Shown in pieces: positions 11,541-39,360 of a stretch of DNA of 64,000 bases. Source of the stretch: Anaerocolumna sp. (lineage in GTDB: Bacteria > Bacillota > Clostridia > Lachnospirales > Lachnospiraceae); NCBI GenBank assembly GCA_029239975.1, contig JARBTX010000008.1, positions 1 to 64,000 of the forward strand. Direction: 5' to 3'. The position numbers and the translations under genes were made by a program. How positions within the stretch are numbered: position 1 is the stretch's first letter; every line of letters begins with the position of its first letter. Below the pieces are notes generated by a model. That model did not search any database and was not told the DNA's origin. It was given only the letters and a program-made list of their open reading frames with translations.

Positions 11541-11770
11541 TTATTCATTCACTAGGTTTTATAAGCTGCTTAATTTATTCTTTCACTAGATTTTTAAGTT
11601 ACTTCATTTATTCTTTCACTAGATTTTTAAGTTACTTCATTTATTCATTCACTAGTTTAAGCTACTAATTTACTATTTTATTCTTTCACTAGTTCCTTTA
11701 AGCTACTAATTTATTCTTTCACTTGTCTTATAAACTACTTCATTTAATCTTTCACTAGTTTTTTTAAACT
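11541..11770 (-). repeat. ~33-bp tandem repeat derived from the 3' end of hemA including its stop codon (about 7 units)
   Basis: minus strand units such as ATGAAGTAACTTAAAAATCTAGTGAAAGAATAA (x2 perfect), ATTAGTAGCTTAAAGGAACTAGTGAAAGAATAA. Confidence 0.9.
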
Positions 11771-12937
11771 ACTTAATATAATGTCAAAATCATTACTTGG
11801 TACTAAGTCTCTTAATTGATACAAGATACTTTCCAAGGGTTGTTTTTCAAATACGCTCTTTACATTTTCCATATATGGTAAAAATTCTCTAAAATTAATT
11901 AATTTTAAACAATTATCAACTTCTTCATCAATAATACTTTTTGCTGACTCTACTTCCTGTAATTTCTGTGTGTTATTATTTTCCGATAATTTTTTAAAAT
12001 AATCAATATCTATTAATTTCATATTATCTAACTTTTCTATATTTTTATCAATATCCAATGGTACCGATAGGTCAATAAGTAGACGTGGTTTATTCTCATA
12101 TATAAATTTTTTTACTTCATCGTAAGTGATTGTATAATGTGGGCTTGTTGTTGCACTTACGATAATATCAACTTCATTTATTATCTCATATCTATGTTGA
12201 TAATCTATCATCTTTACTTTAGGATAACTTATGAATTCTTCGGATATATTATGAGATCTAATAGTTCCTACAATATCAATATGTGAATTATGGTATAAAT
12301 TTTTCATTAATATGGTTCCCATTTTACCAGTCAAACCGATAATTAATACTTTTTTCTTTTTGTCTTTTTGGATAAAATTTATGATCTCATGGGAAGCTAA
12401 CGTTCCAATCGATATTGGTGTCTTTGATATCTTTGTATTAGTTTTCACCTTTTTTGCGCAGGTAATCGCTTCGCGAAAAAGTGTATTTAGTAAAAATCCA
12501 GTTGTTCCTAATTCAAATGCTAATTGGTAATTCTCTTTAACTTGACCTAAAATTTCATCTTCACCAACTAACATGGAGTCAATACCACTGGTTACTCTAA
12601 ATAGATGATGAATTGATTTTTCATCACTATAACGATTAAAATATTTTAGCATATTCTCATAATTTAAATTTTTAATAGAAACAATATATTGTATCATTTG
12701 TTCGAGAGCATTTTGGTTACCATTCATATAGATTTCAGTACGATTACAAGTTGTAATCAATACACATTCCGTAATACTTTCTAATCTAACCGCACTCTTA
12801 AGAAAATCACACTTTTCTTCTTTGGTAAATGTTAATAACTCACGTATCTCTACTGGTGCAGTTTTATGACTGATACTTAAAGTATGTATGCTCATCTTTG
12901 TTCCTCTTTCATTTATCACAAGTTTTCTTTCTTTCAC
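11744..12937 (-). CDS. hemA: glutamyl-tRNA reductase
   Basis: SHKTAPVEIRE, CVLITTCNRTEIY, GEDEILGQVKENY motifs; start probably at internal MSIHTLSISH. Confidence 0.94.
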   Translation of the reverse strand: MKERKLVINERGTKMSIHTLSISHKTAPVEIRELLTFTKEEKCDFLKSAVRLESITECVLITTCNRTEIYMNGNQNALEQMIQYIVSIKNLNYENMLKYFNRYSDEKSIHHLFRVTSGIDSMLVGEDEILGQVKENYQLAFELGTTGFLLNTLFREAITCAKKVKTNTKISKTPISIGTLASHEIINFIQKDKKKKVLIIGLTGKMGTILMKNLYHNSHIDIVGTIRSHNISEEFISYPKVKMIDYQHRYEIINEVDIIVSATTSPHYTITYDEVKKFIYENKPRLLIDLSVPLDIDKNIEKLDNMKLIDIDYFKKLSENNNTQKLQEVESAKSIIDEEVDNCLKLINFREFLPYMENVKSVFEKQPLESILYQLRDLVPSNDFDIILSSLKKLVKD

Positions 12938-18176: not shown

Positions 18177-18793
18177 AATTGTTCACCTACACCTATTATT
18201 TTTGTAATTACTGTTACATAATTTTTGTCTTTCGAAAGCTCACAGATATAGCCTTCACCATTTTTAATTTGCCAATGATAAAATTCGTGATTAGGGTTAG
18301 AATACCAATCTAATATGGACATTATGGTACCGCCATGAACAATGAGTGCTATCTCATCACAGGAACAATGGCTCAATATGTGTTGAAATCCTTTGATACA
18401 CCTTTCTTTAAAACCTTCATGAGTTTCACCCCCTGGAAATGGAAGTGTCCCATTGCTATCTAGCCAATCCTGATACTTTTTATTCTGATTTAGTTCCTGA
18501 TAATTTTTATTTTCAAATTCTCCAAAGTCACATTCACGTAATTCATTACAAGTTATATACTTTTGGTTTGGGTATATGATACCTGCTGTCTCAATGCAAC
18601 GTTTCATTGGACTTACATAAATCTGTTGTACCTTAGGATAACAGTTCATTCTTGTATTATCCCAAAGTTTGTTAATTCCATTTATACATAAGGCTTCATC
18701 CGTTGAACCGATGTATCTTTTATACAGATTACCTTCTGTTTGTCCGTGACGTATTAGTATTATTTTCATTTCAACTTTTGTCCTATCCCGCAT
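18173..18793 (-). CDS. histidine phosphatase, probable alpha-ribazole phosphatase
   Basis: IILIRHGQTEGN motif; position in cob cluster. Confidence 0.82.
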   Translation of the reverse strand: MRDRTKVEMKIILIRHGQTEGNLYKRYIGSTDEALCINGINKLWDNTRMNCYPKVQQIYVSPMKRCIETAGIIYPNQKYITCNELRECDFGEFENKNYQELNQNKKYQDWLDSNGTLPFPGGETHEGFKERCIKGFQHILSHCSCDEIALIVHGGTIMSILDWYSNPNHEFYHWQIKNGEGYICELSKDKNYVTVITKIIGVGEQL

Positions 18794-19152
18794 ACAATTC
18801 GTACTACACTATCTGCATGTTCTGCTAATTTACAGCAACTACGTCCTACTATTTCTCGGTATCTTCTATCTTCTTTTTCCATAGGAACAATTCCATACCC
18901 TACTTCATCACAAAGGATAATAACAGATGGGTTGTCCTTGATTAATTTTTCTAAAAATGCTTCCACTTCTTCATTTTCTTTTATTAATCTTCGAATGAAT
19001 TCATGAAAATGATTGATTATAGGCTTAGTTAAAATATCTTCTGTAGTACAATCCACACCATCACAGATTAACTTACTGCTTTCTTCCATCTTTTTTTGAT
19101 GAAGTACAAAATCAAGTTTTCCTTGAGCTCTGCCACCAACATATAACTCCAT
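18766..19152 (-). CDS. short CobU-like protein with atypical P-loop
   Basis: MELYVGGRAQGKLDF start and VIILCDEVGYGIVPMEKEDRRYREIVGR resemble CobU; 128 aa only. Confidence 0.7.
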   Translation of the reverse strand: MELYVGGRAQGKLDFVLHQKKMEESSKLICDGVDCTTEDILTKPIINHFHEFIRRLIKENEEVEAFLEKLIKDNPSVIILCDEVGYGIVPMEKEDRRYREIVGRSCCKLAEHADSVVRIVCGIGQKLK

Positions 19153-19462: not shown

Positions 19463-20224
19463 TTATAATTTATCTATAATAATTGTAGTAATTAAAATTG
19501 CCAATTCACACACTTGCAGGAAAAATCCTGCTAAATCGCCCGTTATTCCACCGAATTGTTTATAAGACATCTTCCTGTAATAAACAAAAACTAACACTGC
19601 TACAACTAAAAGGATTACTCCTGTTACTGCATTTAGAAAAATCATTGCAGCGACGCATAGTAATATGATTGAAACTAACATAATACCAGTAATTTTTCTA
19701 TGTGCACTGGAAGAAAAGGTATATAAAAGCCCTTCTTTTTTAGCAGACTTAAATAAAACCAAAGACAATCCACTGAATGCTCTAGAGAGCACAAAACCTA
19801 TACTAATGATAAGGCTTATTCTTAAGTTTTTAATCTCGGTAAGTGCCCCAAAATACACTAAGTAATACATAACACATCCAATAATAGCAAATGCTCCTGT
19901 ATGGGGATCTTTCATAATTTCTAATTTCTTTTCTTTCGGTTGATATGAACTTAAGGCATCTACCGTATCGAGAAATCCATCAATATGAATTCCACCTGTT
20001 ATCATAACTGGTATTACACAATAAATTGCAGATCTAAAATAAATTCCAAAACCTAACTTTTCACTTATCCACCACCACAGAGTAAGAAAAGCTCCAATTA
20101 CCACACCTACTAGTGGAAAAAAGCCAAGTGAATATTTCATATTTTTATCATTCCATTCTACTCCCCTAACTGGAAGCCTTGAATACATTGAAAATGCTAT
20201 TAACATTGAATTTATCCAAGTCAT
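19463..20224 (-). CDS. cobS: adenosylcobinamide-GDP ribazoletransferase (cobalamin synthase)
   Basis: GGIHIDGFLDTVDAL, MKDPHTGAFAIIG, GGITGDLAGF. Confidence 0.95.
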   Translation of the reverse strand: MTWINSMLIAFSMYSRLPVRGVEWNDKNMKYSLGFFPLVGVVIGAFLTLWWWISEKLGFGIYFRSAIYCVIPVMITGGIHIDGFLDTVDALSSYQPKEKKLEIMKDPHTGAFAIIGCVMYYLVYFGALTEIKNLRISLIISIGFVLSRAFSGLSLVLFKSAKKEGLLYTFSSSAHRKITGIMLVSIILLCVAAMIFLNAVTGVILLVVAVLVFVYYRKMSYKQFGGITGDLAGFFLQVCELAILITTIIIDKL

Positions 20225-20760
20225 ACTTTTCTCCCCTTAATTATATTTGGTATACCACATACTACCTCAACTACATTCAATGCGAGAGAACTGATTCTAC
20301 GATTTATATCACCTAGATTTTGAATATATGTACTTGTATCATCATCATAACTTATACCATCTGAAAACACTTCATTGGAGACAATAACTAGGTTATCACA
20401 CAAGGAATCAAGATGTTTCATTCCTTCCATAATCTCATCACGAACATCTATAGGCTCTGGTAATTGCCTTATTCCATTCTCACTATACATCTCATTTGCC
20501 AGAAGGTTAGACATACATTCCAGTAAAATAGTAGGTTTTCTCTCTACCTTTAGTGACTTTATATTGGTAAAACACTCTATGGTTTGGAATTTCTTATCTT
20601 GTCTTTGTTCTTGATGTCTTTTGATTTTCACAAGACTTTCATTACCATAAGGAATCATAGTGGCTATGTAAATCAAATGTGTCTTATTTAAGCTTAACGC
20701 TAAATTTTCAGCGTACTGGGATTTTCCACTGCCGCTACCACCTGTAACTAATGTAATCAT
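20221..20760 (-). CDS. cobU: adenosylcobinamide kinase / adenosylcobinamide-phosphate guanylyltransferase
   Basis: LVTGGSGSGKSQYAE, YIATMIP...RIKRHQEQR-type region, VSNEVFSDG. Confidence 0.93.
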   Translation of the reverse strand: MITLVTGGSGSGKSQYAENLALSLNKTHLIYIATMIPYGNESLVKIKRHQEQRQDKKFQTIECFTNIKSLKVERKPTILLECMSNLLANEMYSENGIRQLPEPIDVRDEIMEGMKHLDSLCDNLVIVSNEVFSDGISYDDDTSTYIQNLGDINRRISSLALNVVEVVCGIPNIIKGRKV

Positions 20761-20828: not shown

Positions 20829-21935
20829 TCATTCAAATTTTTCATAAGACTTAATATGGATATCTGAGAAGGTGTTGTTCTCGTTATATACACTAAGCGC
20901 CATATCGAGCATTGGAAAAACTAACGCTGTCCCAGTTCCTTCTCCAAGAGCTAAATTTCCATGTATAATTGGGTTTAGTCCCAATTCTTTCATGATCAGC
21001 AAACTAGCAGGCTCTTTACCAATATGGGATGGTAATATATAATCAGCTGTATCCTGACACAATCTAGTTGCAAGCAAAGCTGCAACAGCAGAAATCATTC
21101 CATCTATAATAATTGGGACATGGTATATAGCCCCACCTAGGAATATACCAGTTAATCCTGCTATGTCATAACCACCTAGTTTTGCTAAAACATCAATTGG
21201 ATCTGAATCATCTGGGTCATGAAAAGCAATAGCTTTCTTAATAACATCTATCTTTCTTAATAAACCATCCTTAGATAGACCTGCTCCTTTTCCTGTAACC
21301 AGTTCGACTGGTACATGAAGCAGTACACTAGCTATGGCACTGCTAGTGGTTGTATTACCAATTCCCATCTCACCAGTACCAAAAATTCCATATCCTTCCT
21401 CTTTTAAGTCTTTTACCAATTGGATACCTATATGTATTGCCTGTAATGCTTGTGCACGGGTCATTGCAGGTTCTTTTGCTATATTACCTGTCCCATAAGC
21501 TATTTTTCTATTTAATACACCATCAGTTGAAAGATCTGTTTTTATTCCAATGTCCACTGGAATAACATTTACTTCAGCAACCATAGCCATTCGATTAACA
21601 CTAGCCGTCCCTTTTGCAAAGTTCTCAGTTACAATTGCTGTTACACTACTATCTGTTTGAGTCACTTGCTCTGAAACTACTCCATTGTCACTACACATAA
21701 TTAGGATTGCTCTCTTGCCTAGGTCGAACTGCTTTGTCCCTTTTATACCAGCTATTTTAATAATTAAATCTTCTAGTAGACCTAGACCTTCAATTGGTTT
21801 TGCTATATTATCCCAATGATTTTTTGCATTCAATATAGCAACTTCATCACTGGGATGAATTTCTTTTACTATTTGATCCAATTCCAAATTCATAATTATC
21901 TCACATTCTTTTAATAGCATTTTATTTGATAACAT
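20829..21935 (-). CDS. cobT: nicotinate-nucleotide-dimethylbenzimidazole phosphoribosyltransferase
   Basis: CSDNGVVSEQVTQ, GEMGIGNTTTSSA, LGGYDIAGLTG; start probably at internal MNLELDQ. Confidence 0.95.
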   Translation of the reverse strand: MLSNKMLLKECEIIMNLELDQIVKEIHPSDEVAILNAKNHWDNIAKPIEGLGLLEDLIIKIAGIKGTKQFDLGKRAILIMCSDNGVVSEQVTQTDSSVTAIVTENFAKGTASVNRMAMVAEVNVIPVDIGIKTDLSTDGVLNRKIAYGTGNIAKEPAMTRAQALQAIHIGIQLVKDLKEEGYGIFGTGEMGIGNTTTSSAIASVLLHVPVELVTGKGAGLSKDGLLRKIDVIKKAIAFHDPDDSDPIDVLAKLGGYDIAGLTGIFLGGAIYHVPIIIDGMISAVAALLATRLCQDTADYILPSHIGKEPASLLIMKELGLNPIIHGNLALGEGTGTALVFPMLDMALSVYNENNTFSDIHIKSYEKFE

Positions 21936-22029
21936 TCTCTATCTTTTTTCATAATATATCTATACTAGTTGTAATTGCATGCAATTCCTTCTTCATTCAC
22001 TTACTTAAATTATTTCTTTATATATTTTA

Positions 22030-22233
22030 TCAATCACTTCTTCTATCACTTCTTCTATCACTTCTTCAATTACTTCATCAATCACTTCTTATATCACTTC
22101 TTATATCACTTCTTCTATTACTTCATCAATCACTTCTTCTATTACTTCTACAATCACTACTTCTATTACTTCTTCAACTACTTCTTCAATTACTTATTCA
22201 ATTACTTCTTCAATTACTTCTTCAATTACTTCT
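22030..22233 (-). repeat. 12-bp tandem repeat, 17 units, beginning with the last three codons and stop of cobB
   Basis: minus strand AGAAGTAATTGA (R S N stop) and variants; 204 bp = 17 x 12 with exact period. Confidence 0.95.
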
Positions 22234-23595
22234 CATCTTTTCACTATACTTAATACATTGATTCACAAAACCCTCTGCAATTGCTGGATTACTGTAATAA
22301 TATAGGTGTGGAAAACCTGCATACATTATGTCCGTTGCATGAATGCAATCCCATTCTTTCGTTCCACTTGCTTTAACGGCATGATAATCTTCTCCAGAAC
22401 TTTCACTATCCCAATAATGAAATTCATGTGCTTTAACATGACCTAATTTGCTAGAAATTAGATTATCCTTATAAGCACTCATATCGATATAGCCAAATCG
22501 TTGTAACCGATTTGTCTTATAACATTTACCCTGAATCACACCTACCATAGGATATTCTTTTCCTGTTGTATCTTCCATCGTATCATGTAGGTACATAAAC
22601 CCACCACATTCTGCGATTGTTGGGATTCCATCATAAATTGCTTGTTTTATACTCTTTAACATGTTCTGATTTTTTGACAGCTCATCTGCATATAGCTCTG
22701 GATAACCACCATTTAATAAAAGCCCACTAATATCATTTGGGAGTTTCGTATCCTTAAGTGGGCTAAATGGTAGTAACGTACAACCCATCTCAGTTAATAA
22801 ATCAAGATTATCCCTATAATGAAAGCAAAATGCATTATCCATGGCAATAGCTATCTTTATTTGTTTACTCACCTTTTTCACTTTAAAAATAGAGATGTCA
22901 GGAAGGTCTTCAGCTTGTTTTGATAGTTGAAGCATACCGTTTATATCAAGTGTGTTTTCAAGATTACTAGCTAATAATTCAATCTTGTTCTTAATATCTT
23001 CTATCTCATCTGCCGTAACTAGCCCCAAATGCCTACTTTCTAGTATGCATTCTTTTATGACTGGTACGTACCCTAAAGAAACAACACCTAGCTTTTTTGC
23101 TAATTTTTTAGCATCTTCATACAACACTTCAGGTAACTGATTGAATATAACCCCTTTTATATTATTATCAGCTTTAAACCCTAGAAACCCTTGCAGAATA
23201 GCTCCAATTGAAGTACTTACCCCTTTACAATCTAGTACTAATATCACTGGCGTTTTGGTGATTGTTGCTATGGAGTAACTACTAGCATTACTAGTAAAAC
23301 CAATGCCATCATAATATCCCATAACACCTTCAATCACACTAATATCTGTATCCTTTGAATTCTTAATAAATAGGGAGTTTAATGTTTCTGAATCTGTGAA
23401 ATAACTATCTAAGTTTCCTGACTTCGTACCTATAATCTTACTATGAAACATAGGGTCAATATAATCAGGCCCACATTTAAATGAGCTAACGAAAAGTCCT
23501 TGATTCATGATACATTTTAAAATACCACAGGTAATGGTTGTCTTTCCGCATCCACTTTTAGTACCAGCAATCATTAATCTATTAATTTTGTTCAA
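22222..23595 (-). CDS. cbiA: cobyrinic acid a,c-diamide synthase
   Basis: MIAGTKSGCGKTTITCGIL, FKCGPDYIDPMFH, AECGGFMYL. Confidence 0.95.
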   Translation of the reverse strand: MNKINRLMIAGTKSGCGKTTITCGILKCIMNQGLFVSSFKCGPDYIDPMFHSKIIGTKSGNLDSYFTDSETLNSLFIKNSKDTDISVIEGVMGYYDGIGFTSNASSYSIATITKTPVILVLDCKGVSTSIGAILQGFLGFKADNNIKGVIFNQLPEVLYEDAKKLAKKLGVVSLGYVPVIKECILESRHLGLVTADEIEDIKNKIELLASNLENTLDINGMLQLSKQAEDLPDISIFKVKKVSKQIKIAIAMDNAFCFHYRDNLDLLTEMGCTLLPFSPLKDTKLPNDISGLLLNGGYPELYADELSKNQNMLKSIKQAIYDGIPTIAECGGFMYLHDTMEDTTGKEYPMVGVIQGKCYKTNRLQRFGYIDMSAYKDNLISSKLGHVKAHEFHYWDSESSGEDYHAVKASGTKEWDCIHATDIMYAGFPHLYYYSNPAIAEGFVNQCIKYSEKMRSN

Positions 23596-30100: not shown

Positions 30101-30196
30101 TATTGCCACTTAATATTGCCAGCTTAATATTGCCAGCACTATATCTCCATCATTATATTTCCGTCCATCATTATATTGCCATCATTATATTGCCAT
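30101..30196 (-). repeat. ~14-bp tandem repeat from the cbiK 3' end including stop (about 7 units)
   Basis: minus strand ATGGCAATATAATG (M A I stop) repeated with decay. Confidence 0.88.
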
Positions 30197-30967
30197 CTTA
30201 ATATGGTCTATAAAGATACTTCGTATCTCTTTATATTCACCTAATCCTTTTAAAATACAGGATACATCAAACCCTTCTTTTTCTAATTGAAACCTCCATG
30301 AGTTTTCCTCTTCTCCTGCCATATCATTTTTTGCATGCTCCCCTGAAACAATCATAAATGGTGTTACAAGTACTTTATTATACTTCTTTCCCTTTAATTG
30401 TTTCATAATATCAGTTATTTCTGGATAAGCTTCCACGGTGGCTACATAAACATTATCATAACCACGAGCTTTAAACATATAATCTAGAGCAGTATATGAC
30501 GTATTTGTATAATGTTCTGTGCCATGCCCCATAAATATTAGCGCTTGATTTTTTTCATTTACAGGTAATTCTTTTGCTAATGTTTCTACGACTCTCTTAT
30601 AATCATCTGTAGAATGTAGTAGTGGGGTACCAAATTTTATAGTTTTAAAATCATCTTTATGATAGATTACGTCCGCTATCATGTTGTCATTTTCAATACC
30701 ATTCAGTACATGTGTTGGTTGAACAATAATTTCTTCCATACCATCCAATTTCATTTGAACCATGGCCTCTGAAACAGTAAACACATGAATGTTATCTCTA
30801 TGTTTTAAAATTTTAATTATCATTTTACTAGTATAAGCACGATATACTCTATATTCAGGGTAGCAATTATTAATATCTTGTTCGATTTGGTCTATTGTCT
30901 TTTCTCTCGTATCATTATGGCTTGTACCAAAGCTTACAACTAGAATTGCTTTTTTACACATTCTCAC
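30185..30967 (-). CDS. cbiK: sirohydrochlorin cobaltochelatase
   Basis: AILVVSFGTSHNDTREKTI, FMGHGTEH, VTPFMIVSGEHAKNDMAG. Confidence 0.94.
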   Translation of the reverse strand: MRMCKKAILVVSFGTSHNDTREKTIDQIEQDINNCYPEYRVYRAYTSKMIIKILKHRDNIHVFTVSEAMVQMKLDGMEEIIVQPTHVLNGIENDNMIADVIYHKDDFKTIKFGTPLLHSTDDYKRVVETLAKELPVNEKNQALIFMGHGTEHYTNTSYTALDYMFKARGYDNVYVATVEAYPEITDIMKQLKGKKYNKVLVTPFMIVSGEHAKNDMAGEEENSWRFQLEKEGFDVSCILKGLGEYKEIRSIFIDHIKMAI

Positions 30968-33639: not shown

Positions 33640-33913
33640 TTTTTAACCCACGCATATCACATTTTTTAGAACATGTGAACTGTCATAATTGGATTGAAAG
33701 AGAAAGACAGTTGTATGCATTCCTTTTTTCATATTTCTTTCAACCATTTTAATGTAATGCATAAAAAAATGCCCTTTTGTACAGACATATCACATTTCAG
33801 TAATGAAATGATTTATGTTGACAAAAAGACATAATAAAATAAAGTCCTACCTATCATAGGAACTATATTTATTACATCTAGTTATCGTCCGTAACTAGGT
33901 GTAAAACACGTAT

Positions 33914-34127
33914 CACAAAGGCAGGTCTTCTGACTTAGGCGTCATCGCAATATCCAATCTTCCCATTTACACAGTGATTTTTGTATCTACCTATTTTAAA
34001 GGTTTAACATAAAATAGATAGTTACTAGGATATTACTCTTCCTTTACAGCGGCGGGACCGTATGGGGTTTTCACCCATTTCCCTATTATCTTGTACTACA
34101 AATAATTGTAGCAAGCACCTCTATGAT
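33914..34127 (-). promoter_or_regulatory. cobalamin riboswitch upstream of cbiMNQO-cbiK
   Basis: minus strand AGGTGCTTGC, GGGAAATGGGTGAAAACCCC..ACGGTCCCGCCGCTGTAA, GACGCCTAAGTCAGAAGACCTGCC match the cobalamin riboswitch core (B12 box). Confidence 0.95.
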
Positions 34128-34144
34128 ATTAAATTGTTAAAAAG

Positions 34145-39246: not shown

Positions 39247-39260
39247 TCAAAAACCTCCTT

Positions 39261-39360
39261 TATACCCTTACGAGTACATTTATACCCTTACGAGTACATT
39301 TATACCCTTACGAGTACATTTATACCCTTACGAGTACATTTATACCCTTACGGGTATAAA
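39261..39360 (-). repeat. five 20-bp tandem repeats resembling CsoR operators in the csoR 5' UTR
   Basis: TATACCCTTACGAGTACATT x4 perfect plus TATACCCTTACGGGTATAAA. Confidence 0.95.

Follow-up and report, generated by a model that had tools for sequence, protein, structure and literature searches.

The 12-bp array between cobB and cobT

The 64-kb window (the whole stretch of DNA analysed here) contains a cobalamin cluster in which cobB, cobT and their neighbours were confirmed by NCBIfam models, and the array under study lies between these two co-directional genes, as the original prediction had placed it (Table 1). A cobalamin riboswitch upstream probably controls the cob genes in general, and the negative GC skew across the window suggests that these genes are on the leading strand. 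Two minus-strand regions of the same cluster, 18766-19152 and 20221-20760, both match the CobU kinase/guanylyltransferase family below the cut-off, the former matching only the C-terminal part of the family.

Table 1. Positions of the cobB array, its neighbouring genes and related features in the window
Feature	Position	Strand	Description	Basis
Array at hemA 3' end	11541..11777	-	33-bp units x 7, overlaps stop; hemA (glutamyl-tRNA reductase) at 11744-12937 (-)	Pfam GlutR_N (hemA)
cobT, nicotinate-nucleotide--dimethylbenzimidazole phosphoribosyltransferase	20829..21893	-	Probable start at 21893	NCBIfam TIGR03160, 354.3 bits vs 319.3
Unique DNA, core array to probable cobT start	21894..22029	-	Contains two tiny ORFs and the degenerate end of the repeat	
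Degenerate extension of 12-bp periodicity	21982..22029	-	Units 18-21, 3-10/12 matches	TRF span, unit listing
Core array	22030..22233	-	17 units x 12 bp, sense consensus AGAAGTRATWGA; unit 1 (22222-22233) holds CobB stop	Unit listing, TRF, shuffles
cobB/cbiA, cobyrinic acid a,c-diamide synthase	22222..23595	-	457 aa; AGA AGT AAT TGA at end is unit 1	NCBIfam NF002204, 445.5 bits vs cut-off 254
Array at cbiK 3' end	30101..30197	-	14-bp units x 6.7, sense TAATGATGGCAATA, overlaps stop; cbiK at 30185-30967 (-)	Pfam CbiK (cbiK)
Cobalamin riboswitch	33903..34137	-	About 10 kb upstream of cobB, same strand	Rfam RF00174, 92.3 bits

The cobB gene terminates in ATG AGA AGT AAT TGA and is followed immediately by the array. 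Unit 1, AGAAGTAATTGA, consists of CobB's final three codons and the stop codon, and 17 in-register 12-mers run on the minus strand from 22233 down to 22030, so that the coordinates, unit, period and count first reported (17 x 12 bp, 22030-22233) were exact on re-inspection. TRF called 21982-22233 with a period of 12, 20.9 copies, 79% matches, 0% indels and a score of 257. Shuffled sequence scored at most 81 (whole window, 60 dinucleotide shuffles) and 83 (local 400 bp, 300 shuffles). The array is thus real and far above chance. Prokaryotic satellites and minisatellites have been described as arrays of four or more tandem units of 10-200 nt that are species-specific, often unique and attributed to replication anomalies (Subirana & Messeguer 2019, PMC6749651). 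With 17 units of 12 bp (20.9 by TRF) the cobB array falls within this class, its regularity as measured by TRF exceeding chance, and it resembles those satellites in unit size, copy number and sequence uniqueness.

Counted from unit 1, the 17 units carry 0, 0, 0, 1, 1, 1, 3, 1, 1, 2, 3, 3, 1, 1, 2, 2 and 1 mismatches, and most of the variation falls on unit positions 7 (A/G) and 10 (T/A). Units 1 to 3 are identical, as are units 11 and 12 and units 15 and 16, and the latter two pairs look like recent duplicates. Neighbouring units were not significantly more alike than random pairs (p = 0.27). The 12-bp periodicity of the original prediction is exact, but the loss of identity that it described is not a smooth decay: the divergence is a mosaic with re-duplicated units. 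Over all 204 bp, C is absent from the sense strand.

A two-unit pattern with three mismatches allowed matched only this locus in its own genome, and the unit is absent from 14 congeners, which means that the array is not part of a dispersed family. The 137 bp adjoining it also have a single match in the genome, and a dispersed or MIRU-like mobile repeat was rejected on these grounds. Like the array, mycobacterial MIRUs lie between co-directional genes where coupling matters (review PMC12548453), but MIRUs form a single mobile sequence family whose insertion sites are start codons and whose ORF is coupled through a -4 nt spacing, whereas the unit of the cobB array is unique in the genome, located at a stop codon and without such a coupled ORF. 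A MIRU-type start-codon insertion with a coupled internal ORF was likewise rejected, since the array adjoins the stop codon and the ORFs in its frames finish by 22005, more than 100 bp before cobT, with no long one running into that gene. The array further resembles MLVA VNTR loci such as TR6 and TR10 of Clostridium difficile, as described in PMC2628660, in being a short array of near-identical units in a low-GC genome, but unlike those loci it is known from the sequence of one isolate alone: the 15 genomes of the genus that were compared include no other of the same species, and the nearest CobB among them is 65% identical.

The cobB tail and the start of cobT

The nearest congener with a cobB-cobT junction (G001, CobB 65% identical) has no array there. 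Its junction reads ...GAG CGG AGA AGC GGA TGC TTT AAA GAA AGG ACA GAA TTA TGA AC..., in which the cobB stop TGA and the cobT ATG overlap as ATGA. When the window is aligned to this junction, the match holds through GAGAAG and resumes near TTATGAATTTGG, the interval being taken up by the array and some 130 bp of other sequence; at the array point, cobB has AGAAGC in G001 and AGAAGT in this genome. Since the array and the approximately 130 bp sit at the AGAAG point, the unit arose from the cobB tail, and the array occupies what was formerly the C-terminal tail of the gene. The seed AGAAG is ancestral cobB sequence, and the earlier suggestion that the unit was made from the last cobB codons is supported by the AGA AGC GGA TGC found at exactly that point in the array-free G001. 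The cobB-cobT junctions of the other congeners also contain no array and range from an overlap to a gap of about 130 bp, varying with the start codon chosen.

Two start codons were considered for cobT, and the ATG at 21893 (354 aa) is probably to be preferred over that at 21935 (368 aa), because it aligns with the ATGA junction of G001 and has the better predicted anti-SD pairing upstream (-5.8 vs -2.7 kcal/mol, computed against an assumed standard 16S 3' end). The CobB stop and this probable cobT start are 328 bp apart.

Tandem arrays in the genome and the genus

A TRF survey (at least 4 copies, units of 10-200 bp) of 669 kb of this genome, the window included, found 44 arrays, corresponding to about 66 per Mb. 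The sample covers about 14% of the genome, a draft of 180 contigs with 6.5% contamination, and gene boundaries were taken from ORFs called at 90 aa or more, not from annotation. By extrapolation, the genome carries hundreds of such arrays. Thirty-four of the 44 are intergenic, with diverse and apparently unrelated units of 12-47 bp. In reference genomes surveyed previously, bacteria reach at most about 14-23 arrays per Mb and Methanosarcina up to 89, with many of the arrays coding (PMC6749651); this genome differs from those bacteria in its density and in that most arrays are intergenic and several are seeded on stop codons, although the counting programs differ and the comparison is indicative only. 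The window's most homogeneous array (39259-39356, 20 bp x 4.9, 98% identity, TTTATACCCTTACGAGTACA) lies inside an ORF call and is possibly recent.

Array-rich genomes also occur elsewhere in the genus. Densities of 86 per Mb (140 kb) and 90 per Mb (100 kb) were found in the congeners G010 (arrays on L074-L080) and G012 (arrays on L139-L143), compared with 13 per Mb in the other congeners pooled (1.0 Mb). While the cobB array by itself is an ordinary minisatellite, three species with about 66-90 arrays per Mb against about 13 per Mb in the other sampled congeners offer a natural system in which to ask why some bacteria gather intergenic repeats, whether arrays at gene 3' ends, as seen in this species, mark hot spots of mutation or refuges from selection, and how operon expression changes once overlapping genes have been pushed apart. 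Simple loss of mismatch repair or RNase H cannot account for the array load and was rejected as its cause, since MutS, MutL and the RNase HII/HIII and RNase HI families were found in this genome as well as in nearly all congeners, the few absences falling in incomplete congener genomes. A tandem duplication of another kind, near-perfect and 273 bp long, was seen at L058:11386-11890 and contains a short hydrophobic reading frame. The ATP synthase epsilon gene (L058:16736-17146) follows a few kb downstream, and the duplication is probably one of atpE (c subunit).

Unit length being a multiple of three had been taken to preserve the CobB C-terminus. This does not hold, because the stop codon lies within unit 1, which makes the length of the unit irrelevant to the C-terminus. 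Moreover, the intergenic arrays show no preference for such periods (13, 8 and 13 with a remainder of 0, 1 and 2 modulo 3), so the unit length of the cobB array needs no explanation. Among arrays inside ORFs, 8 of 10 have periods that are multiples of three.

Arrays in this genome are concentrated at gene ends. Of 42 flanking gene ends, 10 are overlapped by an array, as against none of 30 flanking starts (Fisher p = 0.004). Co-directional arrays are closer to the upstream stop in 24 of 28 cases (p = 0.0002), and divergent genes flank only 1 of 36 arrays (p = 0.01). With the genus pooled, arrays overlap 16 of 70 gene ends vs 1 of 66 starts (p = 0.0001). Of the ten ORFs whose stop an array overlaps, nine correspond to recognisable genes, namely hemA, cobB, cbiK, atpC, ligA and those encoding a methyltransferase, an isochorismatase, a GHKL protein and a two-domain sugar-/nucleotide-binding protein, and the first three of these are all located within the window. 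The stop codon itself is repeated in several stop-overlapping arrays, for example that of cbiK (...GATGGCAATATAA followed by TGATGGCAATATAATGATGG). Although equally array-rich, G010 and G012 together have 13 co-directional arrays that are split 6 vs 7 and so lack a 3' bias, and the bias may therefore be species-specific or limited by numbers. The preference for 3' ends could be mutational, not selective.

Sense strands of arrays in co-directional gaps are poor in C, with a mean of 0.064 vs 0.114 in unit-length-matched controls (p < 0.001), and 7 of the 28 are C-free where 2.4 are expected (p = 0.006). Such a bias is compatible with a strand-linked mutational process, R-loops for instance: untranslated, C-poor RNA behind stop codons might form R-loops which promote slippage. 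We regard it as doubtful that the species has a strand-aware process of this kind, building stop-codon-seeded arrays at gene 3' ends; if it does, gene ends would be systematically remodelled and operon genes uncoupled. A search of the literature on gene-end-seeded arrays returned nothing specific.

Origin of the cobB array and its likely effect on cobT

The cobB array is, with good probability, a locally seeded, lineage-specific minisatellite that is tolerated behind a stop codon. A 12-bp segment comprising CobB's last three codons and the stop would have been duplicated in tandem, the presumed mechanism being slipped-strand replication or unequal recombination, and the units may then have diverged and been re-duplicated. 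Persistence of the array would follow from two properties: copies behind the stop leave CobB intact, and the RNA of the sense strand has no C, hardly any structure and no terminator. In general, a gene would be left unharmed by a duplication across its stop codon but not by one across its start or promoter.

We find it unlikely that the array is instead a contingency locus, in which a variable number of units tunes cobT (or CobB) via spacing, via re-initiation at repeated start/SD-like units or via mRNA stability. Its position between two genes of an operon whose counterparts in a relative overlap, where spacing matters (PMC12548453), would suit such a role, as would the unstructured RNA, the 204-nt array alone having an MFE of -3.6 kcal/mol vs a mean of -37 for windows of the operon. 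Eight units contain GTGAT and have a predicted anti-SD pairing of -6.4 to -7.4 kcal/mol, while 9 of the 12 start sites examined in the cluster pair at -7.5 to -10.6 kcal/mol (all against the same assumed 16S end). The pairing of the eight units is, however, made via GTGAT and not via AGAAG, which had been called SD-like: AGAAGTAAT units pair at about -2 kcal/mol, and the first units (-2.2) are at background (mean -2.0). The GTGAT units have no starts leading to cobT, no long ORF from the array reaches that gene, and neither terminator-like nor sense-strand promoter-like sites were found at 21800-22400. A change in unit number would flip neither a reading frame nor a promoter, given the stop codon in unit 1 and the lack of a sense-strand promoter-like site in that interval. 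That many unrelated arrays lie behind unrelated genes also argues against a dedicated switch. Copy-number control of cobT by the array is unsupported rather than refuted. A structured RNA or riboswitch at the array was rejected, as folding of the array region was no better than that of shuffles (z = 0.33) and the sole Rfam match in the window is the cobalamin riboswitch.

It is very improbable that the array is a decayed coding repeat, left over from a small gene or the tail of a repeat protein and read in sense frame 2 as (EEVI)n, ending in EVIDKIYKEII. Of the four positions that vary in at least two units, this frame makes two synonymous and one a conservative E/D exchange, but chance alone would place three of four such sites in a single codon phase about one time in three. 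Frame 2 is furthermore stopped at units 4, 11 and 12 and by a TGA just before the array, and none of the congeners has an EEVI-type tail. All three sense frames through the array are interrupted, and the antisense open frames over it encode L/Q/S or F/Y/N repeats only. An assembly artefact, with the array or its exact length produced by the fragmented and partly contaminated draft, is hardly credible either, as the units carry distinguishing variants, 204 bp is short and similar arrays occur in single-contig congeners, although the count of the identical units 1-3 could possibly hold some error.

As a minisatellite, the array probably only separates two genes which overlap in a related species, and it would act mechanically, the cobB stop and the cobT start having gone from an ATGA overlap to a separation of 328 bp. 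Coupling works best at a short intergenic distance (review PMC12548453), so cobT should now be uncoupled from cobB. The likeliest consequence would accordingly be a loss of direct translational coupling that leaves cobT to its own weak ribosome-binding site. Between the array and cobT, two tiny minus-strand ORFs (21996-21949, MKKELHAITTSIDIL, and 21952-21911, MKKDRECYQIKCY) share an ATGA overlap and end 17 nt short of the probable cobT start; they could be a re-initiation chain or a product of chance.
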